Shown: in pieces, positions 2,610 through 61,366 of the stretch
Position numbering within the stretch: the stretch's first letter is position 1
Layout of the letters: the number at the start of each line of letters is the position of its first letter
Source of the DNA: Candidatus Gastranaerophilales bacterium
GTDB taxonomy: Bacteria > Cyanobacteriota > Vampirovibrionia > Gastranaerophilales > Gastranaerophilaceae
Direction of reading: 5' to 3'
Length of the DNA stretch: 64,000 nt
NCBI GenBank assembly: GCA_944323145.1
Contig: CALURJ010000005.1
Span: 1 to 64,000 of the forward strand
Position numbers and translations under genes: made by a program
The notes under the pieces: model-generated
Database searches by the model: none
The model's input: only the letters and a program-made list of their open reading frames with translations
Told to the model about the DNA's origin: nothing

Positions 2610-3431
2610 TTACCAGGGATAATCATCTTTAATTTTCCAGCCGTCATATTGAATCAATGCACCGCAATAGTAGCCGAGAGAATTTTTCTTACAGCCCCTG
2701 TTGCCGTCATTTAACAAGAAATCACGTGAAACATTAGAAAAATTGCCGTCTAATCCCCAAAAATTTTGTTTTGTAATTGTTTTAGAAGTATTGAGATAAT
2801 ATGTAAAAACATCTCTGCCAACTTTATTTGGATTTTTATTGCCATTTATATCAACGTGTATAATAACTGCATGCTTGTTGCTATCAATAGATAAAATCAG
2901 AGTAGTTCCATCTTGTAAAAATATTATGTAGTGCTGGGTTGTATTAAAAGGATTATTATTTAAAAAACTATACATTTCTGGAATTCTTTTGCATTGTGTG
3001 CCGCAGTTATCAGCAACTTTCAAATAAGGTATCATATATGTGTTAATAAAATCGCTTAATGATGCGTTTGTATCATCTGAACCTGTAAAATCAAAATTCC
3101 AACCTGATGGATCACCATTTTCATTTTGCGCCATTTGAAACATTTGGGATATAGTTGTATAACTCTTTTTAAGTTTGTTTACCGTGACGTCTTTTTGATA
3201 TTTAGTGATAAGCACGGGCATTGTAATTGCCGCAACAACTCCTATTATCCCGAGTGTTATTAATACCTCGGCAAGAGTAAAAGCTCGTTTGGTATATTGG
3301 AAAATATTGTGATGTATAATATCATTACTATGACATATGTTTTTTTTAACGTAAAGCCATTTGGCAGAAACGCTTATACTGCCACGTTTTGCGGGGGGGG
3401 GGGTAACTCTAAAAGCTGCTTCTCTATCCAT
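2610..3431 (-). CDS. Prepilin-like protein P1 with poly-C tract in leader
   Basis: A 273-residue protein with a type IV prepilin N-terminus, RAFTLAEVLITLGIIGV, at residues 49-65. It should be cut by prepilin peptidase before Phe51 and act in a surface fibre or pseudopilus; its exact role is unknown. Ala, not Gly, precedes the cleavage site, and the Glu at position +5 is kept. The leader is unusually long (50 residues) and contains a run of 11 C near its start, coding TPPP; at this length the start ATG is in frame. The C-terminal part has DINGNKNPNKVGRDVF and a CGALIQYDGWKIKDDYPW end shared with P3 and P5. It has its own strong promoter. Confidence 0.85.
   Translation of the reverse strand: MDREAAFRVTPPPAKRGSISVSAKWLYVKKNICHSNDIIHHNIFQYTKRAFTLAEVLITLGIIGVVAAITMPVLITKYQKDVTVNKLKKSYTTISQMFQMAQNENGDPSGWNFDFTGSDDTNASLSDFINTYMIPYLKVADNCGTQCKRIPEMYSFLNNNPFNTTQHYIIFLQDGTTLILSIDSNKHAVIIHVDINGNKNPNKVGRDVFTYYLNTSKTITKQNFWGLDGNFSNVSRDFLLNDGNRGCKKNSLGYYCGALIQYDGWKIKDDYPW
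3393..3403 (-). repeat. Homopolymer tract, 11 C on the coding strand of P1
   Basis: Eleven consecutive G on the plus strand (C in the gene), about ten codons after the P1 start codon. At 11 the reading frame from the ATG runs into the pilin; a change of one or two bases would break it. Tracts of this length are prone to slipped-strand mispairing. Confidence 0.8.
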
Positions 3432-6304: not shown

Positions 6305-7291
6305 ATGTATATGTGCAAACTAAGATATGCTAAGACCTTCGGGGGGGGGGACACTGTAGGCTCCACCGAGGTTCGGAAGGCAGGAGGACAGGCAAGTTTC
6401 AATAGCTATTTAGGTAAAACTGTGACAAAAGTTATTATTGATAATAGCTTTGCCTCTATGCCTCTTCGCATCTTTGCATCTAACTTTAGCTTGCCTTCCT
6501 GCCCTCCGAGCTTCTGTTCTTCTGACCTCACCCACCCCTTTACTTCCCCTCCCCTCAAGGGAGGGGAAAAAGAGTGCTCACACCACCCCTCTCCCATAGG
6601 TGAGGGTGCTACGCACGTAGCCAACTCTAACAATATTCGTCGAGCTGCGTTCACTCTTGCAGAGGTCCTCATCACCCTCGGCATAATTGGTGTGGTTGCG
6701 GCGATGACAATTCCTAACATCGTATCTAAATATCAAAAAAAGGTGCTTGTAAGCCAGTTTAAAAAATCTTATGCATCTGTTCAAAATGCAATAAATATGA
6801 CGATAGCTGAAAATGGAACCCCTTATGAGTGTTATAATATGGGATTTGGCGGCTATCATGTTACTGACTGTGCCGTATTTTGGAACGATTTGTTGAAGCA
6901 AATGAAAGTAATTAAGACCTGTAATTATGCAGCTGACGATAAAGAATGCGGGCAGGTAAGTTATAAAACAAAAGAACAAGTTTTAGCAGAAGGCGGCAGT
7001 ATAACAAATTCTTCATGTTCTTTTTTAAATGGAGAAGGTGGGCGAAAAATTAATATTTTATCTGATGGCAGTTATATTATAAATTATGGAGGAAGCGGTC
7101 TTAGAAGCCATCACAATGTCTATTTCGCAATAGATACAAATGGCGCAAAAGGGCCTAATAAATGGGGATACGATTTATTTTATATGGTTCTTAACCGTGA
7201 AAGTATGAGCAAAGATGTTGTTGTGATGGATGAAGTTTGTGCAATTAAAGAAAAAGGCGGTTATTACGTATCTGAAATAATGCAAGAATAA
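6305..7291 (+). CDS. Prepilin-like protein P2 with poly-G and repeat-derived leader
   Basis: A 328-residue prepilin-like protein; the motif RAAFTLAEVLITLGIIGV begins near residue 113, far later than the usual under-30-residue leader. The leader reads through a run of 10 G (FGGGD), an inverted GGAAGGCAGGAGG-type repeat, and two GC-rich palindromes coding SPPLKGGEK and PSPIGEGA. At 10 G the frame from ATG to pilin is open. A second ATG two codons in has better spacing to a GAGG site. The mature part has DTNGAKGPNKWGYDLF, a motif common to the family, and several Cys. The start abuts accC. Function beyond an expected place in a pilus-like fibre is unknown. Confidence 0.75.
   Translation: MYMCKLRYAKTFGGGDTVGSTEVRKAGGQASFNSYLGKTVTKVIIDNSFASMPLRIFASNFSLPSCPPSFCSSDLTHPFTSPPLKGGEKECSHHPSPIGEGATHVANSNNIRRAAFTLAEVLITLGIIGVVAAMTIPNIVSKYQKKVLVSQFKKSYASVQNAINMTIAENGTPYECYNMGFGGYHVTDCAVFWNDLLKQMKVIKTCNYAADDKECGQVSYKTKEQVLAEGGSITNSSCSFLNGEGGRKINILSDGSYIINYGGSGLRSHHNVYFAIDTNGAKGPNKWGYDLFYMVLNRESMSKDVVVMDEVCAIKEKGGYYVSEIMQE
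6341..6350 (+). repeat. Homopolymer tract, 10 G in the P2 leader
   Basis: Ten G preceded by TTC and followed by ACACTGTAGGCTCC. The downstream TAGGCTC is shared with the tracts of P3 and P5, so the tract is part of a repeated module. With 10 G the frame is open to the pilin. Confidence 0.8.
6371..6515 (+). repeat. Long inverted repeat inside the P2 leader
   Basis: The left arm CGGAAGGCAGGAGGACAGG is answered by a near-complementary right arm CTTGCCTTCCTGCCCTCCG about 100 nt later. Related sequences lie between tsf and rpsB and in the P5 leader. Confidence 0.55.
6544..6612 (+). repeat. Two GC-rich REP-like palindromes in the P2 leader
   Basis: TTCCCCTCCCC paired with GGGAGGGGAA around TCAA, then CACCCCTCTCCC paired with GGTGAGGGTG around ATA. 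These resemble palindromic repeats usually found between genes, yet here they lie inside an open frame and code SPPLKGGE and PSPIGEGA. Confidence 0.6.
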
Positions 7292-10825: not shown

Positions 10826-10990
10826 ATGAAAGATATATTAAAAGCTTTGCTGAAAACGGTTTCGGCTCTCAACAAATCAGTTGAGCCGGTTACTATGTCA
10901 GATAATTCAGCAGATGAAAAGCTAATTCAATCATCTGACAAACTAAGAGATTTGAAAAGTGTTTCAAAAGACGAGGATAAATCTAATTAA
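10826..10990 (+). CDS. Small hypothetical protein
   Basis: A 54-residue reading frame, MKDILKALLKTVSALNKSVE at the N-terminus and a charged Lys/Asp/Ser-rich C-terminus. It has no clear ribosome site, and its 3' end overlaps the end of mutS (opposite strand) by 8 nt. The amphipathic start and hydrophilic tail recall the small protein at 31179. It may be real or chance. Confidence 0.4.
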   Translation: MKDILKALLKTVSALNKSVEPVTMSDNSADEKLIQSSDKLRDLKSVSKDEDKSN

Positions 10991-13559
10991 ATAAATTTAA
11001 CTGTGGGACTTCCACATTTGGAACATCAGAATTACGCTTGCGTGTTGCAAGATTGTTTGAATAATCCTTCTGCATTCTCGTCATTAAGTCCTCCGAACGT
11101 TTTATAACCGCATTTGGAAGCCCTGCCATTTTGGCAACCTGAATCCCGTAACTCTTGCTTGCTCCGCCCTGAACAATTTTTCGTAAAAATTCAATTTCTC
11201 CGTTTTCTTCAGATATTGTAATTCTGTAATTTTTTATCTGAGGATAAGTTTGAGTCATTACATTTAATTCATGATAATGTGTTGCAAATATGCAGCGAGC
11301 CTTGATTTTAGTTGCAATATATTCTGCAACAGCCCATGCAATGGCAACTCCGTCATACGTACTTGTGCCTCTGCCGATTTCATCCAGTAAAATCAGACTT
11401 CTTTCCGTAGCTGAATTTAAAATACATGCGGTTTCAACCATTTCAACCATAAATGTTGACTGCCCGAGGGTTAAATCGTCTGATGCACCGACTCTTGTGA
11501 AGATTTTGTCAATTATACCTATTTTTGCAAAATCCGCAGGAACCCATGAACCTATTTGAGCTAAAATTGCAATCAGGGCATTTTGCCTCATATACGTTGA
11601 CTTACCTGCCATATTTGGTCCGGTTAAAATCATAAACTGTGTTGCTTCAGATGAATTGCATTTTAATTCCAAATCGTTCGGCACATATTCACCCAATGGA
11701 AGAATTTTCTCCAAAACCGGATGACGACCGTTTTTAACAATAAAATCGTCAGATTCATCAATTATCGGTTTACAATAGTTATTTTCAACGGCTGCCTGTG
11801 CAAGACCAGCATAGACATCACATAATGAGATGCACTGAGCAATTTCCCTTATTTTCGTGACAAATTCTTTTGAATACTCTCTGAAATCACAGAAGAGTTT
11901 GTATTCAAGCTCGGTTGATTTAAATTTGGCAGAAAGTACATCATCTTCATGTTTTTTTAATTCTTCCGTAATAAATCTTTCACCGTTAGTAAGAGTTTGT
12001 TTTCTTATGTAACCTTCAGGAATTTGATTAAGGTAAGAATTTGAAATTTCAATAAAGTAGCCGAAAACTTTGTTAAATCCGACTTTAAGAGATTTAATTC
12101 CGGTTCTTTCTTTTTCCTGCTCTTCAAAATTTTTGAGCCATTGTTCACCGCCTGTCAGAAGTTCGCGGAAATAATCAAGTTCTCCTGACACTCCGTCTTT
12201 TAGTATCCCGCCGTCTTTTATCAGTGCGGGGGCCTCATCTGATATTGTTTTATCAATAAGTGCCGTATATTCGACAATTTCATCTTTATATTTTTCTATT
12301 TGCTCAAGCGGATTATATTGAAGTGTTGATGAAGCCTGTAAAAGCTCCGGCAGCATCGCAAGCGATGTTTTTAAACTCAAAAAATCTCTGGGGTTTGCAG
12401 AGTTGTTAGACATCCTTGTTGCGAGTCTTTGAATATCATAAACTTTTTCTAAAAGATTACAGAGATTAATCCTTTCATCATTTTTTTCAACGAGTTCGGA
12501 AATACAATTTTGTCTTGCAATAATATCTTCTGCTCTTTTTAACGGCTGACAAATCCAGTTTTTTAAAAGCCTTGCTCCCATATTGGTTTTGGTTTTATCT
12601 ACAGCCCATAAAAGCGACCCGAACTTATTCTTATCCCTTAAAGTTTCTGTTAATTCAAGGTTTCTTCTTGTACTGCCGTCCAAAATCATAAATTCGGAAA
12701 GTTCGTAGGGCTCAATACGTTCAAATTTTGGAACGTTTTCCATCATATTTTCCCAGACATAAGCAAGTAAAGCTCCTGCAGCTCTGAATCCAAGCTTGTA
12801 GCGGCTGTAACCGAAAGCTTCAAGACTTTCTGTTTTAAAAACAGCTTTTAAATTATTTGTAGCAAAATTTTCATCAAAAACTGATGTAGGAATTTTGGAG
12901 CAGTTATAAAGTTTGGTAATTCTTTCAGGAAGGTTTATTTTTTCATCGGGAACAATCTGAAAAGGCATAATTTTTGCTCTTATTGAAGGCCCTAAAACTT
13001 CAGTCGGGGCTATTCTTGCAAGTTCATCCATAATGAGATTTAGAGGGGCCTGAGTAACCTTAAATTCTCCTGTTGAAATATCTGAGTAAGAAAATCCGTA
13101 AAAATCACTTTTTTCATCTTTAAAAAGCGCACAAATGTAGTTGTTTGAATTCTGCTTTAAAAAATCGCTTTCTGTAAGTGTTCCCGATGTGATAATTCTT
13201 GTAATACCGCGTTTTACAATTCCTTTAGCAAATTTCGGGTCTTCAAGCTGATCGCATATAATGACTTTGTAATTTTTTTGAACAAGTTTTTCCAAATAGG
13301 AATTTATAGCCTTAGCAGGAATTCCCGCAAGCGGAATTCTTCCGAATTTACCCTGTTCTCTACCTGTAAGGGTAAGTTCAAGTTCTTTTGACATTGTAAC
13401 AGCGTCTTCAAAAAAAGTTTCATAAAAGTCGCCGAGTCTGTAAAGCAGAATTTTGTCCGGATGCTGGTGTTTTATTTTTAAATATTCCTGCATAGCAGGG
13501 GTAAGGTCTTCTACCTTTATATCCGCAGTATTGATGTAATTGATTTCAGGTTTTTTCAT
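10983..13559 (-). CDS. mutS: DNA mismatch repair ATPase MutS
   Basis: An 858-residue mismatch-recognition protein. The N-terminal mismatch-binding loop is GDFYETF (the Phe-x-Glu pair), the C-terminal ATPase has Walker A GPNMAGKSTYMRQ, Walker B LILLDEIGRGTSTYDG and ATHYHEL. The open frame extends 13 codons further, but MKKPEINYIN is the natural start. Upstream is an extended -10, TGTTATACT, 12 nt before the ATG with no ribosome site, so the leader is very short or absent. The intergenic space to the divergent gene is only 37 bp. If the pilin tracts are phase-variable, MutS activity would affect their switching rate. Confidence 0.96.
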   Translation of the reverse strand: MKKPEINYINTADIKVEDLTPAMQEYLKIKHQHPDKILLYRLGDFYETFFEDAVTMSKELELTLTGREQGKFGRIPLAGIPAKAINSYLEKLVQKNYKVIICDQLEDPKFAKGIVKRGITRIITSGTLTESDFLKQNSNNYICALFKDEKSDFYGFSYSDISTGEFKVTQAPLNLIMDELARIAPTEVLGPSIRAKIMPFQIVPDEKINLPERITKLYNCSKIPTSVFDENFATNNLKAVFKTESLEAFGYSRYKLGFRAAGALLAYVWENMMENVPKFERIEPYELSEFMILDGSTRRNLELTETLRDKNKFGSLLWAVDKTKTNMGARLLKNWICQPLKRAEDIIARQNCISELVEKNDERINLCNLLEKVYDIQRLATRMSNNSANPRDFLSLKTSLAMLPELLQASSTLQYNPLEQIEKYKDEIVEYTALIDKTISDEAPALIKDGGILKDGVSGELDYFRELLTGGEQWLKNFEEQEKERTGIKSLKVGFNKVFGYFIEISNSYLNQIPEGYIRKQTLTNGERFITEELKKHEDDVLSAKFKSTELEYKLFCDFREYSKEFVTKIREIAQCISLCDVYAGLAQAAVENNYCKPIIDESDDFIVKNGRHPVLEKILPLGEYVPNDLELKCNSSEATQFMILTGPNMAGKSTYMRQNALIAILAQIGSWVPADFAKIGIIDKIFTRVGASDDLTLGQSTFMVEMVETACILNSATERSLILLDEIGRGTSTYDGVAIAWAVAEYIATKIKARCIFATHYHELNVMTQTYPQIKNYRITISEENGEIEFLRKIVQGGASKSYGIQVAKMAGLPNAVIKRSEDLMTRMQKDYSNNLATRKRNSDVPNVEVPQLNLFN

Positions 13560-13596
13560 AGTTATAATAATAGTATAACATGACAAGGATTTCAAC

Positions 13597-14196
13597 ATGG
13601 GTTGTTTAAAAAATATTTTGAGAGCAATAATACTTACACTGGCTGTTATAGGTTTTCTTTCGTTAGGCGGAAAAGAACTTATTGCCGGCTTAATTCACAA
13701 TTACATAAATCCTTCAAAAGAAACAGTTCTTGAAAGAGCTCAAAAGGTAGGGGATTTTTCAAAAATTAACGATGAATTTGAAATAGAAAAGGCCGCGGGG
13801 ATAATGGGTTATAATGCTGTTGTTGCCGAGCACAAGGCTACAGGGCAAAAAATGTTTGTTGTTGAATCAGGTGATAAGGCCATATTGACTGCTGAAGATA
13901 TAAAATCTGATGATGTTGAAGAGAAGTTAAGAAAAGCTTTGAGTAAGGTTAAATATCAGGCAGTATCGGTGGATGAGCTTAAGGTCACAAAGCACGGAAC
14001 AATGAATTCATACGGGAAAGAGGTTCCGTTTGTGAAATTTGAAGCAAAAGTAAAGAAACTCCCGATAGGTGAGGTCGGCGGGATTATTTCTGTAGCGCAG
14101 ACAAAAGACGGAGAACCGAGACTTTTAATATCCGCAAATGAAAAAAATAAATATTCCCAGTTGATTTCTGATGAATTTTTCAGAAAAATAAAATAA
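13597..14196 (+). CDS. Membrane-anchored hypothetical protein
   Basis: A 199-residue protein with one N-terminal hydrophobic segment (about residues 8-32, AIILTLAVIGFLSLGG) and a soluble remainder of mixed alpha/beta character. I do not recognise the family. The start follows AAGGA at 7-nt spacing. It is divergent from mutS and shares a compact promoter region: a plus-strand TATAAT overlaps the minus-strand -10 candidates. Confidence 0.75.
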   Translation: MGCLKNILRAIILTLAVIGFLSLGGKELIAGLIHNYINPSKETVLERAQKVGDFSKINDEFEIEKAAGIMGYNAVVAEHKATGQKMFVVESGDKAILTAEDIKSDDVEEKLRKALSKVKYQAVSVDELKVTKHGTMNSYGKEVPFVKFEAKVKKLPIGEVGGIISVAQTKDGEPRLLISANEKNKYSQLISDEFFRKIK

Positions 14197-22843: not shown

Positions 22844-23577
22844 GACTCACTACCTCCAAATAAACTGATAAGTTCCTCTATCCTTATTTTAACGAATTTT
22901 TCTCACTGTTTAATCGTTCCAAGGATGTATAATTTTCTAGAGCAAAAGATGGATAAATGTATCTATCCCCGCTCCCAAGATTTTGTATATTCATCATAAA
23001 ACTAAATTAAAAAAAATAAACACATTTAACATTTCCATGCCAATCTTTTTACAATTATTTTTTCTCTAAAACTAAAGATGAGCGTTTAGCAAGTTTTTCG
23101 AGTATAAAATTTCTTCCGAAAAAATTTACATAATTTTTGTAAACTAAATGTTAAAATCTCTTGCAAAATTCTAAACAAGTCTGAGCATGGTAATTTTGCC
23201 CTGATTTTGAAATATTAATATTGTTAATAAATAACTGCCTGATGTCGTTGCTGGTAAAGTGGAGAAATGAAAGGTTGAGTTAATACGGCCGTGCTGCGAC
23301 TGCGGATTATGTTCGCAAGAAACGCACAGAAAAATAAATTCCTTCCATATATGGGGAAGGTTAGAGTGGGTTGCAATCAATTTCTTTAAGTTTGTTATCC
23401 GCCCTTAATCCCTCCCTAATCAGGGATGGAGAACAGAAAGCCTTCACTTTTTATTGTGTTCATTTTTTATAAAAACGGGAATAAAAATTTTAGGGGAGTA
23501 TAAAATAGCAAAAACATGAAATCCCCCGTGGTGCATGTATTTTACCATGTTAACTTTTGTAACAAAAAAGGATGTTT
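22844..23577. other. Long non-coding region upstream of cobO
   Basis: About 730 nt without a supported gene. The first half is plain AT-rich DNA containing only a likely cobO upstream region. The second half (from about 23320) carries the orphan pilin-leader module listed separately. A 69-codon minus-strand frame here lacks a ribosome site and overlaps repeat DNA, so I do not call it. Confidence 0.5.
23320..23455 (+). repeat. Orphan copy of the pilin P3 leader module
   Basis: In order it shares with the P3 leader: AAAAATAAATTCCTTC, an AAGGTTAGAGTG/AAGGTAAGGATG block, a CAAT, then CTAATCAGGG, and finally AGAAAGC-CTTCACTTT, which matches the P3 bases coding KKAAFTL except for a short gap. The match stops right at the start of the prepilin motif, and no pilin follows. 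This looks like a decayed or truncated pilin cassette. Confidence 0.5.
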
Positions 23578-28686: not shown

Positions 28687-28715
28687 TTGAAAATTTCTTG
28701 TAAATATGTTAAAAT
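28687..28715 (+). promoter_or_regulatory. Promoter of pilin P3
   Basis: TTGAAA, 17-nt spacer and extended -10 TGTTAAAAT, the same form as the P4 promoter. The likely start codon GTG at 28753 follows a GGGAG site. Confidence 0.65.
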
Positions 28716-28765
28716 ATACATGTTAAATATGAAAATGAAAGGGAGTTTTAGAGTGAAAAGATTGA

Positions 28766-29758
28766 TTGAGAGCTTCGGGGGGGGGAGTTCTAGGCTCCGC
28801 TGTAGGATTAGAGGTCACGAAGTCAGGAAGGCGAGCCGTTATCTGTGTGCAGTGCCCGCGTAAAAATAAATTCCTTCACTTATTAGGTAAGGTAAGGATG
28901 ATTTTTTTTCAATACCTACCCCTAACTTTTATCCTAATCAGGGCGAGGAAGAGTAATTCCCCGAAACGAACTAATTCTTCTAAACTCTCTTTAATCTTCA
29001 CATTTCACACTTCACTTAAAAAGAAAGCTGCGTTCACTTTAGCCGAAGTTTTAATTACCCTGGGAATTATTGGTGTAGTTGCAGCAATTACTTTACCGAC
29101 ACTTATTACAAAGCACCAAAAGCATGTAACGGTCAACAGATTAAAAAAGGCAGTATCAAGTTTTGAACAGGCTATAACACGTGCTCAGGCTGATTATGGT
29201 GATATGTCAGGCTGGACATTTTTACAATCGGGCACGGATTTATCAACTGATTCTTATTCGGTAAGAGCAGAACGTGAAATATTTATTAAGAATTACATAA
29301 TGAAATATATGCAGATATCAAAGGATTGCGGATTGGATAATGTTAATAAATGCCAGACCTATACTACAACATCTTTGGATAAATCTTCTTTTAAGCTTAA
29401 TATAAATTATGGCAGAATGTTTATTACTTCTGACGGAACATTATATAGTATAATGGTTGATAATTATATGATTACGGATGATGATGGAGATCAAACACCT
29501 GTAACAAACGGACATTTACTTGTTACCGTAGATTTAAACGGAGCGGGCGGCCCTAATATATACGGTAGGGATCTGTTTATAATAGATGTTTCTTCCGCTA
29601 ATAAAAAAATTGCTCTGTATGGCGCGGGACGTGACAGGGAAACTTTAAAAAATAATTCAGGATGGGGCTGTAACAGCAGAACGTCTAAACGCTATTACTG
29701 CGGTGCATTAATTCAGCAAGACGGATGGCAGATAAAAGAGGATTATTTATGGCGATAA
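28766..29758 (+). CDS. Prepilin-like protein P3, apparently out of frame with its start
   Basis: A prepilin-like protein with KAAFTLAEVLITLGIIGV and, near the end, DLNGAGGPNIYGRDLF and CGALIQQDGWQIKEDYLWR, close to P5. The pilin frame is open from a TTG at this position. The better start is a GTG at 28753 (GGGAG site, MKRLIESF), but with 9 G in the tract it is out of frame and stops after 36 codons; 8 or 11 G would join it to the pilin. An internal ATG at 28898 (51 codons before... the motif lies 45 residues later) could give a basal product. The leader is made of dispersed repeats. Expected in a pilus-like fibre if made. Confidence 0.7.
   Translation: MRASGGGVLGSAVGLEVTKSGRRAVICVQCPRKNKFLHLLGKVRMIFFQYLPLTFILIRARKSNSPKRTNSSKLSLIFTFHTSLKKKAAFTLAEVLITLGIIGVVAAITLPTLITKHQKHVTVNRLKKAVSSFEQAITRAQADYGDMSGWTFLQSGTDLSTDSYSVRAEREIFIKNYIMKYMQISKDCGLDNVNKCQTYTTTSLDKSSFKLNINYGRMFITSDGTLYSIMVDNYMITDDDGDQTPVTNGHLLVTVDLNGAGGPNIYGRDLFIIDVSSANKKIALYGAGRDRETLKNNSGWGCNSRTSKRYYCGALIQQDGWQIKEDYLWR
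28777..28785 (+). repeat. Homopolymer tract, 9 G in the P3 leader
   Basis: Nine G after CTTC and before AGTTCTAGGCTCCGC. From GTG 28753 this length leads to a stop (TAA at 28861). Eight or eleven G would restore the frame into the pilin. Confidence 0.8.
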
Positions 29759-51926: not shown

Positions 51927-52757
51927 ATGAAAAGAGAAATTATTAATCTTATTTATCATCCTAACGTCCTAACGTCTTCACGTCTAAAAAAATGTGCGTT
52001 TACATTATCGGAAGTTTTAATCACTCTCGGAATTATCGGTGTAGTTGCGGCAATTACAATGCCCGCAATTGTTGCAAATGTTCAAAATGTTATTTTAAAA
52101 AATCAATTTAAGAAAGCATATAATACATTTTATAACGGTGTAATGCAGGCACAGACAAATCTGGGTTACCCTGTAGGATGTTCTTACTGGCTAAGCGGAA
52201 GCTTATGCAAGGAAGTTTGCAAGGAATGGGATCCTGTAGTAGAAGGTGTATGTTCAGGCGGGTTTGAATGTGAAGATGGTTCTCCTTTGCCTGCAGATCA
52301 AAACGGTTTAAGAGGTGATTGTGCAAAATTTGATGAAGAATTATTTAATAATGTTTTTAAAACTGTAAAGTTCTGTGAAAAAGATGCTCTTGCAAACGGT
52401 TGTATAACAGATAATTATCGTGGTACGGATAAAGTATGGTCTGATAATAATCCTGATTCTGACAAAGAGGCAAATCCCAACAGGGGTTTTTCTGAGAGTG
52501 GCATAAAAAATAGATATTCATCATGGATTTTATCTGATGGTATAGTTGTTATTAAATACGGTGAGTATAAAAATTCTATACCCATTTATACAGTTGACAT
52601 AAATGGGCATAGAGGTCCAAATAAGTGGGGATATGATTTGTTTACTTTTGAGCTTCAGGGAGATTATGATGGTATAAGAAAAATTATAGGTATATCATAC
52701 GCAACGGAGACGGGTGGAAAAAATACAGCCGATATGATTAAAGAAATGGGTAAATAA
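51927..52757 (+). CDS. Prepilin-like protein P4, no homopolymer
   Basis: A 276-residue prepilin-like protein with KKCAFTLSEVLITLGIIGV after a leader of only 23 residues. It starts MKREII, like MKRL in P3 and P5, after a GGAG site; an in-frame ATG 12 nt upstream overlaps that site. The mature part has ten Cys, several in pairs (LCKEVCKEW), and DINGHRGPNKWGYDLF, linking it to P2. There is no G or C run, so this may be the family's constitutive form. The leader DNA has a short CTAACGTC direct repeat. Confidence 0.85.
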   Translation: MKREIINLIYHPNVLTSSRLKKCAFTLSEVLITLGIIGVVAAITMPAIVANVQNVILKNQFKKAYNTFYNGVMQAQTNLGYPVGCSYWLSGSLCKEVCKEWDPVVEGVCSGGFECEDGSPLPADQNGLRGDCAKFDEELFNNVFKTVKFCEKDALANGCITDNYRGTDKVWSDNNPDSDKEANPNRGFSESGIKNRYSSWILSDGIVVIKYGEYKNSIPIYTVDINGHRGPNKWGYDLFTFELQGDYDGIRKIIGISYATETGGKNTADMIKEMGK

Positions 52758-60333: not shown

Positions 60334-60404
60334 TTTAATATAGAATTAATATTTGATGCGGAAAGGAGCGGTGTATGAAAAGATTAAGAGATATTAAGAA
60401 TGTC

Positions 60405-60414
60405 GGGGGGGGGG
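60405..60414 (+). repeat. Homopolymer tract, 10 G in the P5 leader
   Basis: Ten G follow ATG 60375 (GGAG site; MKRLRDIKNV) and are followed by CACTCTAGGCTCGGC. At 10 G this start ends at TAG after 15 codons; 8 or 11 G would put it in frame with the pilin. Confidence 0.8.
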
Positions 60415-60475
60415 CACTCTAGGCTCGGCTGGAGGGCCGGTAGCCCCGAAGGCAGGAGGTCAGGCCAATATCGTC

Positions 60476-61366
60476 ATGCTGAACTTGGTTCAGTATCTCT
60501 TATTTGGAAGATTAGAAGATAAGAGGGTCGGAAGGTATGCTAGTATCGGCGTTCAAAGCCTGTTTAAAAATAAACAAAAATCTGCTTTCACATTAGTGGA
60601 AGGCGCTGTGCCTGTAGCTCTGCCGAACAGTCAACGTCAAGCCGCATTCACTTTAGCAGAGGTTTTAATCACCCTAGGCATTATTGGTGTAATCGCCGCA
60701 ATGACAGTACCAGCACTGATTACCAAGTATCAAAAAGAGGTTACTGTTAATGAATTGAAAAAATCTGTTTCAAGTCTTGAACAGGCATTGACCCGTGCAC
60801 AAGTTGATTATGGTGATATGACAGGGTGGAGTTATATACAGTCTGGAATTGAAAGTTCGTCTGATCTAATTAAAATTGAACGTGATAAATTTGTCGAGGT
60901 TTATATAATGCAATATATGCAGATTGCGACTGATTGTGGCTCAGATAACGTGAATAAATGCTCTAATTATATGATAACATCTTTGGATAAAACTTCATAC
61001 AAAATGAATATAACTAACGGAAGAATATTTATTACTACGAACGGTACTTTATATAATATTGCAAGTGATACTATCGTTCAAAAAGATGATAAAGGAAATT
61101 CTAAATATGTTTCAAATGGTCGTCTTCTGATTACTGTCGATATAAATGGTAAGTCTGGCCCTAATATATACGGGCGTGATGTATTTGTATTGAGTGTTGA
61201 TTCATCTGCTAAAAAGCTCCAAATGTTCGGGACTGGAAAATCTAGAGATGATTTGAAAGATGGATCAGAGTTTAGTTGTAACAGTAGAACAGCAAAACGT
61301 TTTTATTGTGGTGCACTTATTCAACAAGATGGTTGGCAAATCAAAGATGATTATCTCTGGAGATAA
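60476..61366 (+). CDS. Prepilin-like protein P5, apparently out of frame with its start
   Basis: A 296-residue frame with AAFTLAEVLITLGIIGV at residue 56 onward, DINGKSGPNIYGRDVF, and CGALIQQDGWQIKDDYLWR, close to P3. The listed ATG lies inside a GTCATGCTGAACTTGGTTCAG-type repeat and has no ribosome site. The natural start, ATG 60375 with GGAG, is cut off by the 10-G frame. The leader also carries a partial earlier copy of the prepilin motif, SAFTLVEG, 20 residues before the real one. It ends 1 nt from the convergent permease stop. If expressed, it should be a pilin. Confidence 0.7.
   Translation: MLNLVQYLLFGRLEDKRVGRYASIGVQSLFKNKQKSAFTLVEGAVPVALPNSQRQAAFTLAEVLITLGIIGVIAAMTVPALITKYQKEVTVNELKKSVSSLEQALTRAQVDYGDMTGWSYIQSGIESSSDLIKIERDKFVEVYIMQYMQIATDCGSDNVNKCSNYMITSLDKTSYKMNITNGRIFITTNGTLYNIASDTIVQKDDKGNSKYVSNGRLLITVDINGKSGPNIYGRDVFVLSVDSSAKKLQMFGTGKSRDDLKDGSEFSCNSRTAKRFYCGALIQQDGWQIKDDYLWR
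60587..60664 (+). repeat. Partial tandem copy of the prepilin motif in P5
   Basis: CTTTCACATTAGTGGAAG and CATTCACTTTAGCAGAGG, 60 nt apart in frame, code AFTLVEG and AFTLAEV. The 43-nt insert between includes CTCTGCCGAA, also found beside tRNA-Leu. Confidence 0.6.

Follow-up and report, generated by a model that had tools for sequence, protein, structure and literature searches.

A large set of putatively slippage-switched type IV pilins with repeat-filled leaders in Candidatus Gastranaerophilales

How can a type IV pilin be produced from a gene whose start codon is out of frame with the pilin, and why does a long stretch of repeats separate the two? The question is raised by P3, a pilin-like gene in a 64,000-nucleotide stretch of DNA (the window; positions 1 to 64,000 of contig CALURJ010000005.1) from Candidatus Gastranaerophilales bacterium. 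The source genome (G000) is a draft assembly of 1.885 Mb that is 99.95% complete. The window contains five pilin-like genes, P1 to P5 (Table 1), all of which score above the cut-off for both PF07963 (5/5) and TIGR02532 (5/5), and the N-terminal methylation and cleavage motif of type IV prepilins, with E5, is present. For a prepilin peptidase, the genome has one Peptidase_A24 match over the cut-off, at C8:5390.

Table 1. Features of the pilin genes in the window; ON and OFF give the frame state as assembled.
Feature	Position	Strand	Remark
P1 leader and mature pilin	2610..3392	-	leader 3282-3392
P1 head and C11 tract (coding strand)	3393..3431	-	in frame (ON)
P2 head and G10 tract	6311..6350	+	in frame (ON)
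P2 long repeat-built leader and mature pilin	6351..7291	+	leader 6351-6649
P3 likely promoter, TTGAAA-17-TAAAAT with extended -10	28687..28715	+	downstream of tuf
P3 head, codons up to the tract	28753..28776	+	GTG AAA AGA start at 28753
P3 G9 tract, putative switch	28777..28785	+	G10 in the G015 ortholog
P3 stub of the presumed ancestral short leader, agttctaggctccgc	28786..28800	+	VLGSA in pilin frame
P3 repeat block inserted in the leader	28801..29026	+	open in pilin frame only; edges approximate
P3 mature pilin, FTLAEVLITLG..., stop included	29033..29758	+	Pfam N_methyl and DUF6613
P4 pilin without tract	51927..52757	+	ATG AAA AGA start; 24 codons before F
P5 head and G10 tract	60375..60414	+	ATG AAA AGA start; tract 60405-60414; OFF
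P5 long leader and mature pilin	60415..61366	+	leader 60415-60646; second FTLVEGA motif copy in leader

P3 and the other pilins of the window

The tuf gene upstream of P3 was named by eye from its sequence. The promoter-like site between the two agrees with the consensus at 10 of 12 positions, and the region mean in shuffles was 0.8. The pilin motif AFTLAEVLITLG lies at 29033, and the distance from the start codon (280 nt, about 90 codons) is not a multiple of 3; P3 is OFF (out of frame) as assembled. In P5 the same motif lies at 60647, 272 nt (about 90 codons) from the start, which again is not a multiple of 3 and leaves the gene OFF. The initial annotation had described leaders of this length, carrying a G tract, for these two genes, and this was confirmed. 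The ortholog of P3 in the sister genome G015 is 94% identical, with 95% amino acid identity in the mature pilin, and starts with ATG in place of GTG. In BLASTN searches (E ≤ 1e-3) the P3 leader matched 13 other pilin leaders of the genome and nothing outside pilin leaders, and 20 shuffled copies gave 0 matches, in agreement with the proposal that the leaders are built of dispersed repeats.

P3, P4 and P5 had been noted to share their first codons, and P4, with a short leader lacking a homopolymer, had been taken as the ancestral form. The shared codons are there as read, but they do not serve as evidence, since other tract pilins start with MRN, MNI, MAR or MEK. Likewise, the P4 leader is indeed short and tract-free, but it is not repeat-free: its end (51957-51998, HPNVLTSSRLKKCA) is the terminal module of the long leaders, and matches the end of the C4:99430 leader with 92% identity across 39 nt. 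As heads vary and P4 has a long-leader module, we rejected an insertion deduced from the shared MKR start, and P4 can no longer be regarded as ancestral.

Repeat-related sequence was also seen elsewhere in the window. A module of about 20 codons at 60587-60646 duplicates FTLAE just ahead of the true motif (FTLAEGATHVA...RRAA/FTLAEV), and is also found elsewhere in the source genome at C1:77566, C3:24310 and C3:53613. The leader at C1:77566 is short and tract-free, indicating that modules can enter without a tract. Positions 23325-23432, between long reading frames, match pilin leaders and then a stretch resembling the start of the motif; this is perhaps the relic of a pilin gene.

Tract pilins, reading frames and tract length

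We searched the source genome for the pilin motif, allowing up to one mismatch, and counted as a tract any G/C run of at least 8 within 700 nt upstream. There are 47 motif sites and 47 G/C runs of at least 8, and such a run precedes 32 of the 47 sites; nine of the 15 sites without a tract have ordinary leaders of 4-7 codons. The comparison genomes were the sister genome G015, G004 from the same genus, and G014, every one a draft assembly. Four-genome counts (163 tract pilins) refer to the fetched parts of these genomes and of G000, with the G015 figures resting on 100 of its 117 motif sites, and those for G004 and G014 on part of their tracts. Against the 32 tract pilins of G000, at least 77 are present in the part read of one relative's genome. 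Runs of G9 or longer number at least 11 in 28 of 33 genomes of the genus, and 0-6 in 11 genomes from other families of the order; runs were checked as preceding pilins in the fetched parts of the four genomes and in 14 tracts of further loci. G022 has 0 pilin-motif matches and was of no use as a tract-free comparison genome.

The DNA from tract to motif is free of stops in the pilin frame in 31 of the 32 tract pilins of G000. Stops in this frame number 3 among 2056 codons, all in one gene, whereas the other two frames have 173 among 2047 and 155 among 2034; the gene at C2:3156 is a tract pilin with a broken leader. Leaders of at least 60 nt in G015 are open in the pilin frame in 68 of 69 cases, and in the other frames in 2 and 0. 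Such openness indicates selection for translation through this stretch, even where, as is often the case, the start ahead of the tract is not in frame with the pilin. A -10-like box was found for 129 of 132 genes (72/132 by the same rule 100 nt further upstream), and an ATG or GTG with a Shine-Dalgarno match lies ahead of the tract in 128 of 163 tract pilins. These counts support the earlier view of the pilins as scattered and individually promoted, and do not describe a Neisseria-type arrangement of silent promoterless donors feeding one expression locus. No in-frame ATG, GTG or TTG follows the tract in 58 of the 163 leaders, which would therefore need read-through from the head. Internal leader codons were rejected as the true starts in the general case on account of these 58 leaders, and with an ATG or GTG plus Shine-Dalgarno match in 31 of 163 leaders, as against the 128 before the tract.

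Six G000/G015 leader pairs could be aligned over nearly their full length. None has an indel in the leader besides the tract, and tract length is off by one base in three of the six: P3 (G9 in G000, G10 in G015), P1 (C11, C10) and C3:139742 (C11, C10). P1 and C3:139742 are thereby ON in G000 but OFF in G015, in support of the proposal that the leaders are frame-switchable. A homopolymer tract in the 5' coding region, a start upstream, a single open frame downstream, and a length that varies between close relatives and shifts the frame, features of phase-variable simple-sequence-repeat contingency loci, are seen here.

Across the four genomes the tract is exactly 10 long in 137 of 163 pilins. 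Among the 134 to which our rule assigned a start (29 of the 163 are left out of frame-state counts), 19 are in frame, 99 need +1 and 16 need -1; by length, 11 of 112 pilins with 10 bases are in frame, and 5 of 7 with 11. As a control we took non-pilin tract genes of the same assemblies, which are glycosyltransferase-like, radical-SAM-like and others as judged by eye from translations. Rows were picked by hand; we excluded those that were pilin-like, those whose leader was truncated by the end of a contig, and those with less than 20 nt in the upstream arm or 240 nt in the downstream arm. By this hand count, 15 of 16 non-pilin tracts of 10 bases are in frame (Fisher p 8e-12 against pilins at length 10). 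Passages of PMC4235727 and PMC9187656 note that G runs of 8 or more may be called wrongly in draft assemblies, but the control implies that a general undercount of G runs cannot account for the pilins. Some points speak against a slippage switch. Lengths are tighter than expected for hypermutable tracts, the class to which a passage of PMC4235727 assigns poly-G runs above 7, and OFF pilins mostly need +1 and not -1, as recoding would likewise predict.

Other tract genes were observed alongside these pilins. Six non-pilin genes of G000 (C1:33062, C1:83575, C6:10030, C9:24663, C19:12062 and C19:17486; L062, L065, L088, L095, L105 and L106) have G/C tracts of 10 or 11 bases and are in frame; several resemble glycosyltransferases or a methyltransferase, and the six are likely to be further switch genes. 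Another pilin-like type (YTLAEIVIVMLI) has a long frame downstream, G10 and a need for +1; it occurs as L080 in G000 (C4:61813) and as L234 and L247 in G004. At C20:19598, C4:37073 and C21:2427 of G000 the run is shortened to G5-G6 and the frame is continuous from the start codon; these leaders are probably switches locked ON. Two MutS_V matches are found in the genome, one of them inside the window, where a long reading frame at 10983-13598 on the minus strand carries it. With MutS present, slippage is not due to its absence, and missing mismatch repair was rejected as a cause so far as MutS is concerned.

Entry of repeats and exchange of leaders

The empty site is preserved in G004, where at most 45 nt follow the tract in 21 of 38 tract pilins (median 33), and where the module patterns tested were found in 0 of 38 leaders. 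Here G10 is followed by cgcactttaggctcagctcctgcc, giving GGG-RTLGSAPA/FTLAEV, and the stub of P3 (agttctaggctccgc) resembles such module-free leaders. Many long G-type leaders of G000 show the filled form, with a near-identical start (cactytaggctc, TLGSA), then repeats, and then an alanine or two before F (AA/FTLAEV); most long G015 leaders start with a diverged stub (such as DSELxx). Leaders range from the short forms of G004 to the roughly 90 codons of P3 and P5. The leader alignment across the genome that the initial annotation called for places the insertion boundary between the TLGSA stub and the last codons, and empty and filled sites uphold its idea of a single site at which repeat modules entered short leaders. 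Its further idea that the modules brought the G tract was not borne out: the tract is already present in short module-free leaders of G004, and short-leader alleles with a tract occur at the same locus in G015, indicating that the tract predates the repeats.

The palindrome TTCCCT-N4-AGGGAA (up to one mismatch) occurs at 38 places in the genome, 17 of them within pilin leaders, which total only about 6 kb. Leader copies of it in the four genomes use two reading frames; the third, in which the commonest form has a stop, is used by none of them. Within the fetched part of the sequence, where the surroundings of pilin genes are over-represented, leader segments match non-leader DNA at 14 places after merging. 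A KICYNSDxxHH-like stretch recurs in mid-length leaders of G004 (L234, L245, L247), G015 and G000, and these may represent an older leader type.

Over 21 equal-length pairs, which are not independent, dN/dS was 0.65 in the leader versus 0.07 in the adjacent 20 mature codons, and about 0.87 for the cross-species rows alone (sum of six rows). Conservation of the long leaders as protein, which had been named as the observation that would overturn repeat insertion, is therefore not seen, and the leaders appear to evolve almost freely as protein. Synonymous differences were 0.098 (pS) in the leader versus 0.351 in the adjacent mature codons; the low value would fit recent leader exchange, and suggests that DNA-level constraint or exchange acts on the leaders too.

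Two loci have homologous flanks in G000 and G015, and their mature proteins are 93% and 95% identical, yet the entire 5' part is different in the two genomes; each version has a tract. C3:139742 shows the reverse pattern, with a retained 5' part and a C-terminal part that is either diverged or replaced. Nine leader pairs within G015 are 89-97% identical; in seven, the shared block extends from the promoter region or near the tract to about 70-190 nt into the mature gene, with dissimilar flanks beyond it, and in the other two it reaches the gene end. Mosaic pilin genes made by recombination are present, and the shared blocks suggest that whole 5' cassettes are exchanged between loci.

Interpretation and known systems

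Judged from sequence, the type IV pilins of these genomes probably form a very large slippage-switched set that is OFF by default and has repeat-filled and swappable leaders. The anatomy, the openness of the frame, the tract differences between sisters, the empty and filled sites and the mosaics are direct observations. Each pilin-like gene would have its own promoter and, about 10 codons after the start, a G/C run of about 10 within the prepilin leader; replication slippage in living cells would shift this run by one base and bring the pilin into or out of frame, and this would contribute to surface diversity. At the modal length of 10 most pilins would be one base short, and hence OFF by default, and a run of 11 would turn them ON; non-pilin tract genes would be set ON at 10. 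The ancestral leader would have been short, consisting of head, tract, TLGSAPA and F. In some species palindromic repeats would then have piled up between the TLGSA stub and the cleavage site, tolerated because prepilin peptidase should remove the leader, with selection mainly keeping the stretch open. Recombination may swap 5' cassettes (promoter or tract, leader and first mature part) between paralogs.

Programmed recoding, by ribosomal -1 frameshifting or transcriptional slippage on G10/C10, would instead yield a constant small fraction of pilin from a genome set one base short by design. It could explain that 99 of 134 pilins need exactly +1 and 137 of 163 tracts are exactly 10, a rule common to G and C tracts with different head lengths. 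We consider it unlikely because three of six sister leader pairs have tracts one base apart, and 11 of 31 G000 and 5 of 15 G014 pilins are already in frame. A frameshift-stimulating RNA structure was also rejected, with no signal downstream of the tracts (mean z -0.34 for G-type, n = 70; +0.37 for C-type, n = 18). A combined scheme, to which we give a similarly low chance, would have the genes held one base short by design, with a recoding trickle from G10/C10 in every cell, slippage to 11 locking single pilins ON, and the tract serving as the left joint for leader cassettes.

That the leaders are functional conserved protein domains, and not tolerated repeat DNA, seems very improbable. Many long leaders do have common peptide blocks in one frame, and short ones the KICYNSDxxHH-like stretch, but the dN/dS values given above, the reading of one palindrome in two frames, the unrelated leaders of genes with 93-95% identical mature proteins, and the absence of modules from G004 all argue otherwise. 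We give still less credence to the view that many of the genes are pseudogenes, or that tract lengths are assembly errors, even though most are out of frame as assembled and some contigs end at or near tracts, since leaders and mature genes stay open, mature dN/dS is about 0.19, and the non-pilin 10-base tracts of these assemblies are in frame in 15 of 16 cases.

If a slippage-switched pilin set is the correct reading, an uncultured gut lineage would have an unusually large pilin switch set in which each gene can flip alone, and its pilus repertoire would be tied to the slippage-switch type of Campylobacter, Neisseria and Bifidobacterium. As it should be cut off, the prepilin leader would lend itself to both a switch and harmless repeat build-up. 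For annotators, most tract pilins look broken in a one-genome assembly, or receive false internal starts.

Parts of this arrangement have counterparts elsewhere. In Rickettsia, palindromic elements lie in frame inside proteins; they are another repeat family, alike in being palindromes in coding DNA, whereas here the repeats occupy the leader of one gene family. Neisseria PilC undergoes phase variation through a poly-G tract in the part of a pilus gene that encodes the signal peptide, but PilC is a two-copy adhesin not known to have repeat-built leaders, while the genes described here encode pilins. Antigenic variation by pilE/pilS in Neisseria builds mosaic pilin genes by recombination, with the N-terminus conserved. 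In that system a single expression locus receives sequence from silent partial copies, whereas in the present set almost every gene checked has a promoter-like site of its own and the moving part is the 5' cassette. A passage of PMC4235727 also informs this comparison.

Poly-G/C contingency loci of Campylobacter jejuni have tracts of G8-G12 inside reading frames, with G10 the commonest in counts quoted in a part of PMC4965091, and 29 tracts in one genome, mostly in surface-modification genes (PMC4965091). Tracts of about 10 inside reading frames are thus common to both, but those of C. jejuni do not form a pilin family. A literature search that covered few subscription papers found nothing that joins Gastranaerophilales with phase variation, and nothing on such pilins in work on Melainabacteria pilins or homopolymer tracts, including a passage of PMC4040986. 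The closest system found is the G-tract replication-slippage switch in sortase-dependent pili of Bifidobacterium breve (PMC9187656). According to the relevant part of that report, this too is a gut commensal, with a G tract between the start and signal part and the rest of the pilin, in genes annotated out of frame and restored by slippage. The strain studied there has two sortase pilus clusters, as against dozens of type IV pilins here, and the same part of PMC9187656 mentions no repeat-filled or swapped leaders, unlike the tract pilins described here. The slippage mechanism has precedents in other bacteria; what look new are its scale, its location in the prepilin leader and the swappable, repeat-filled leaders.
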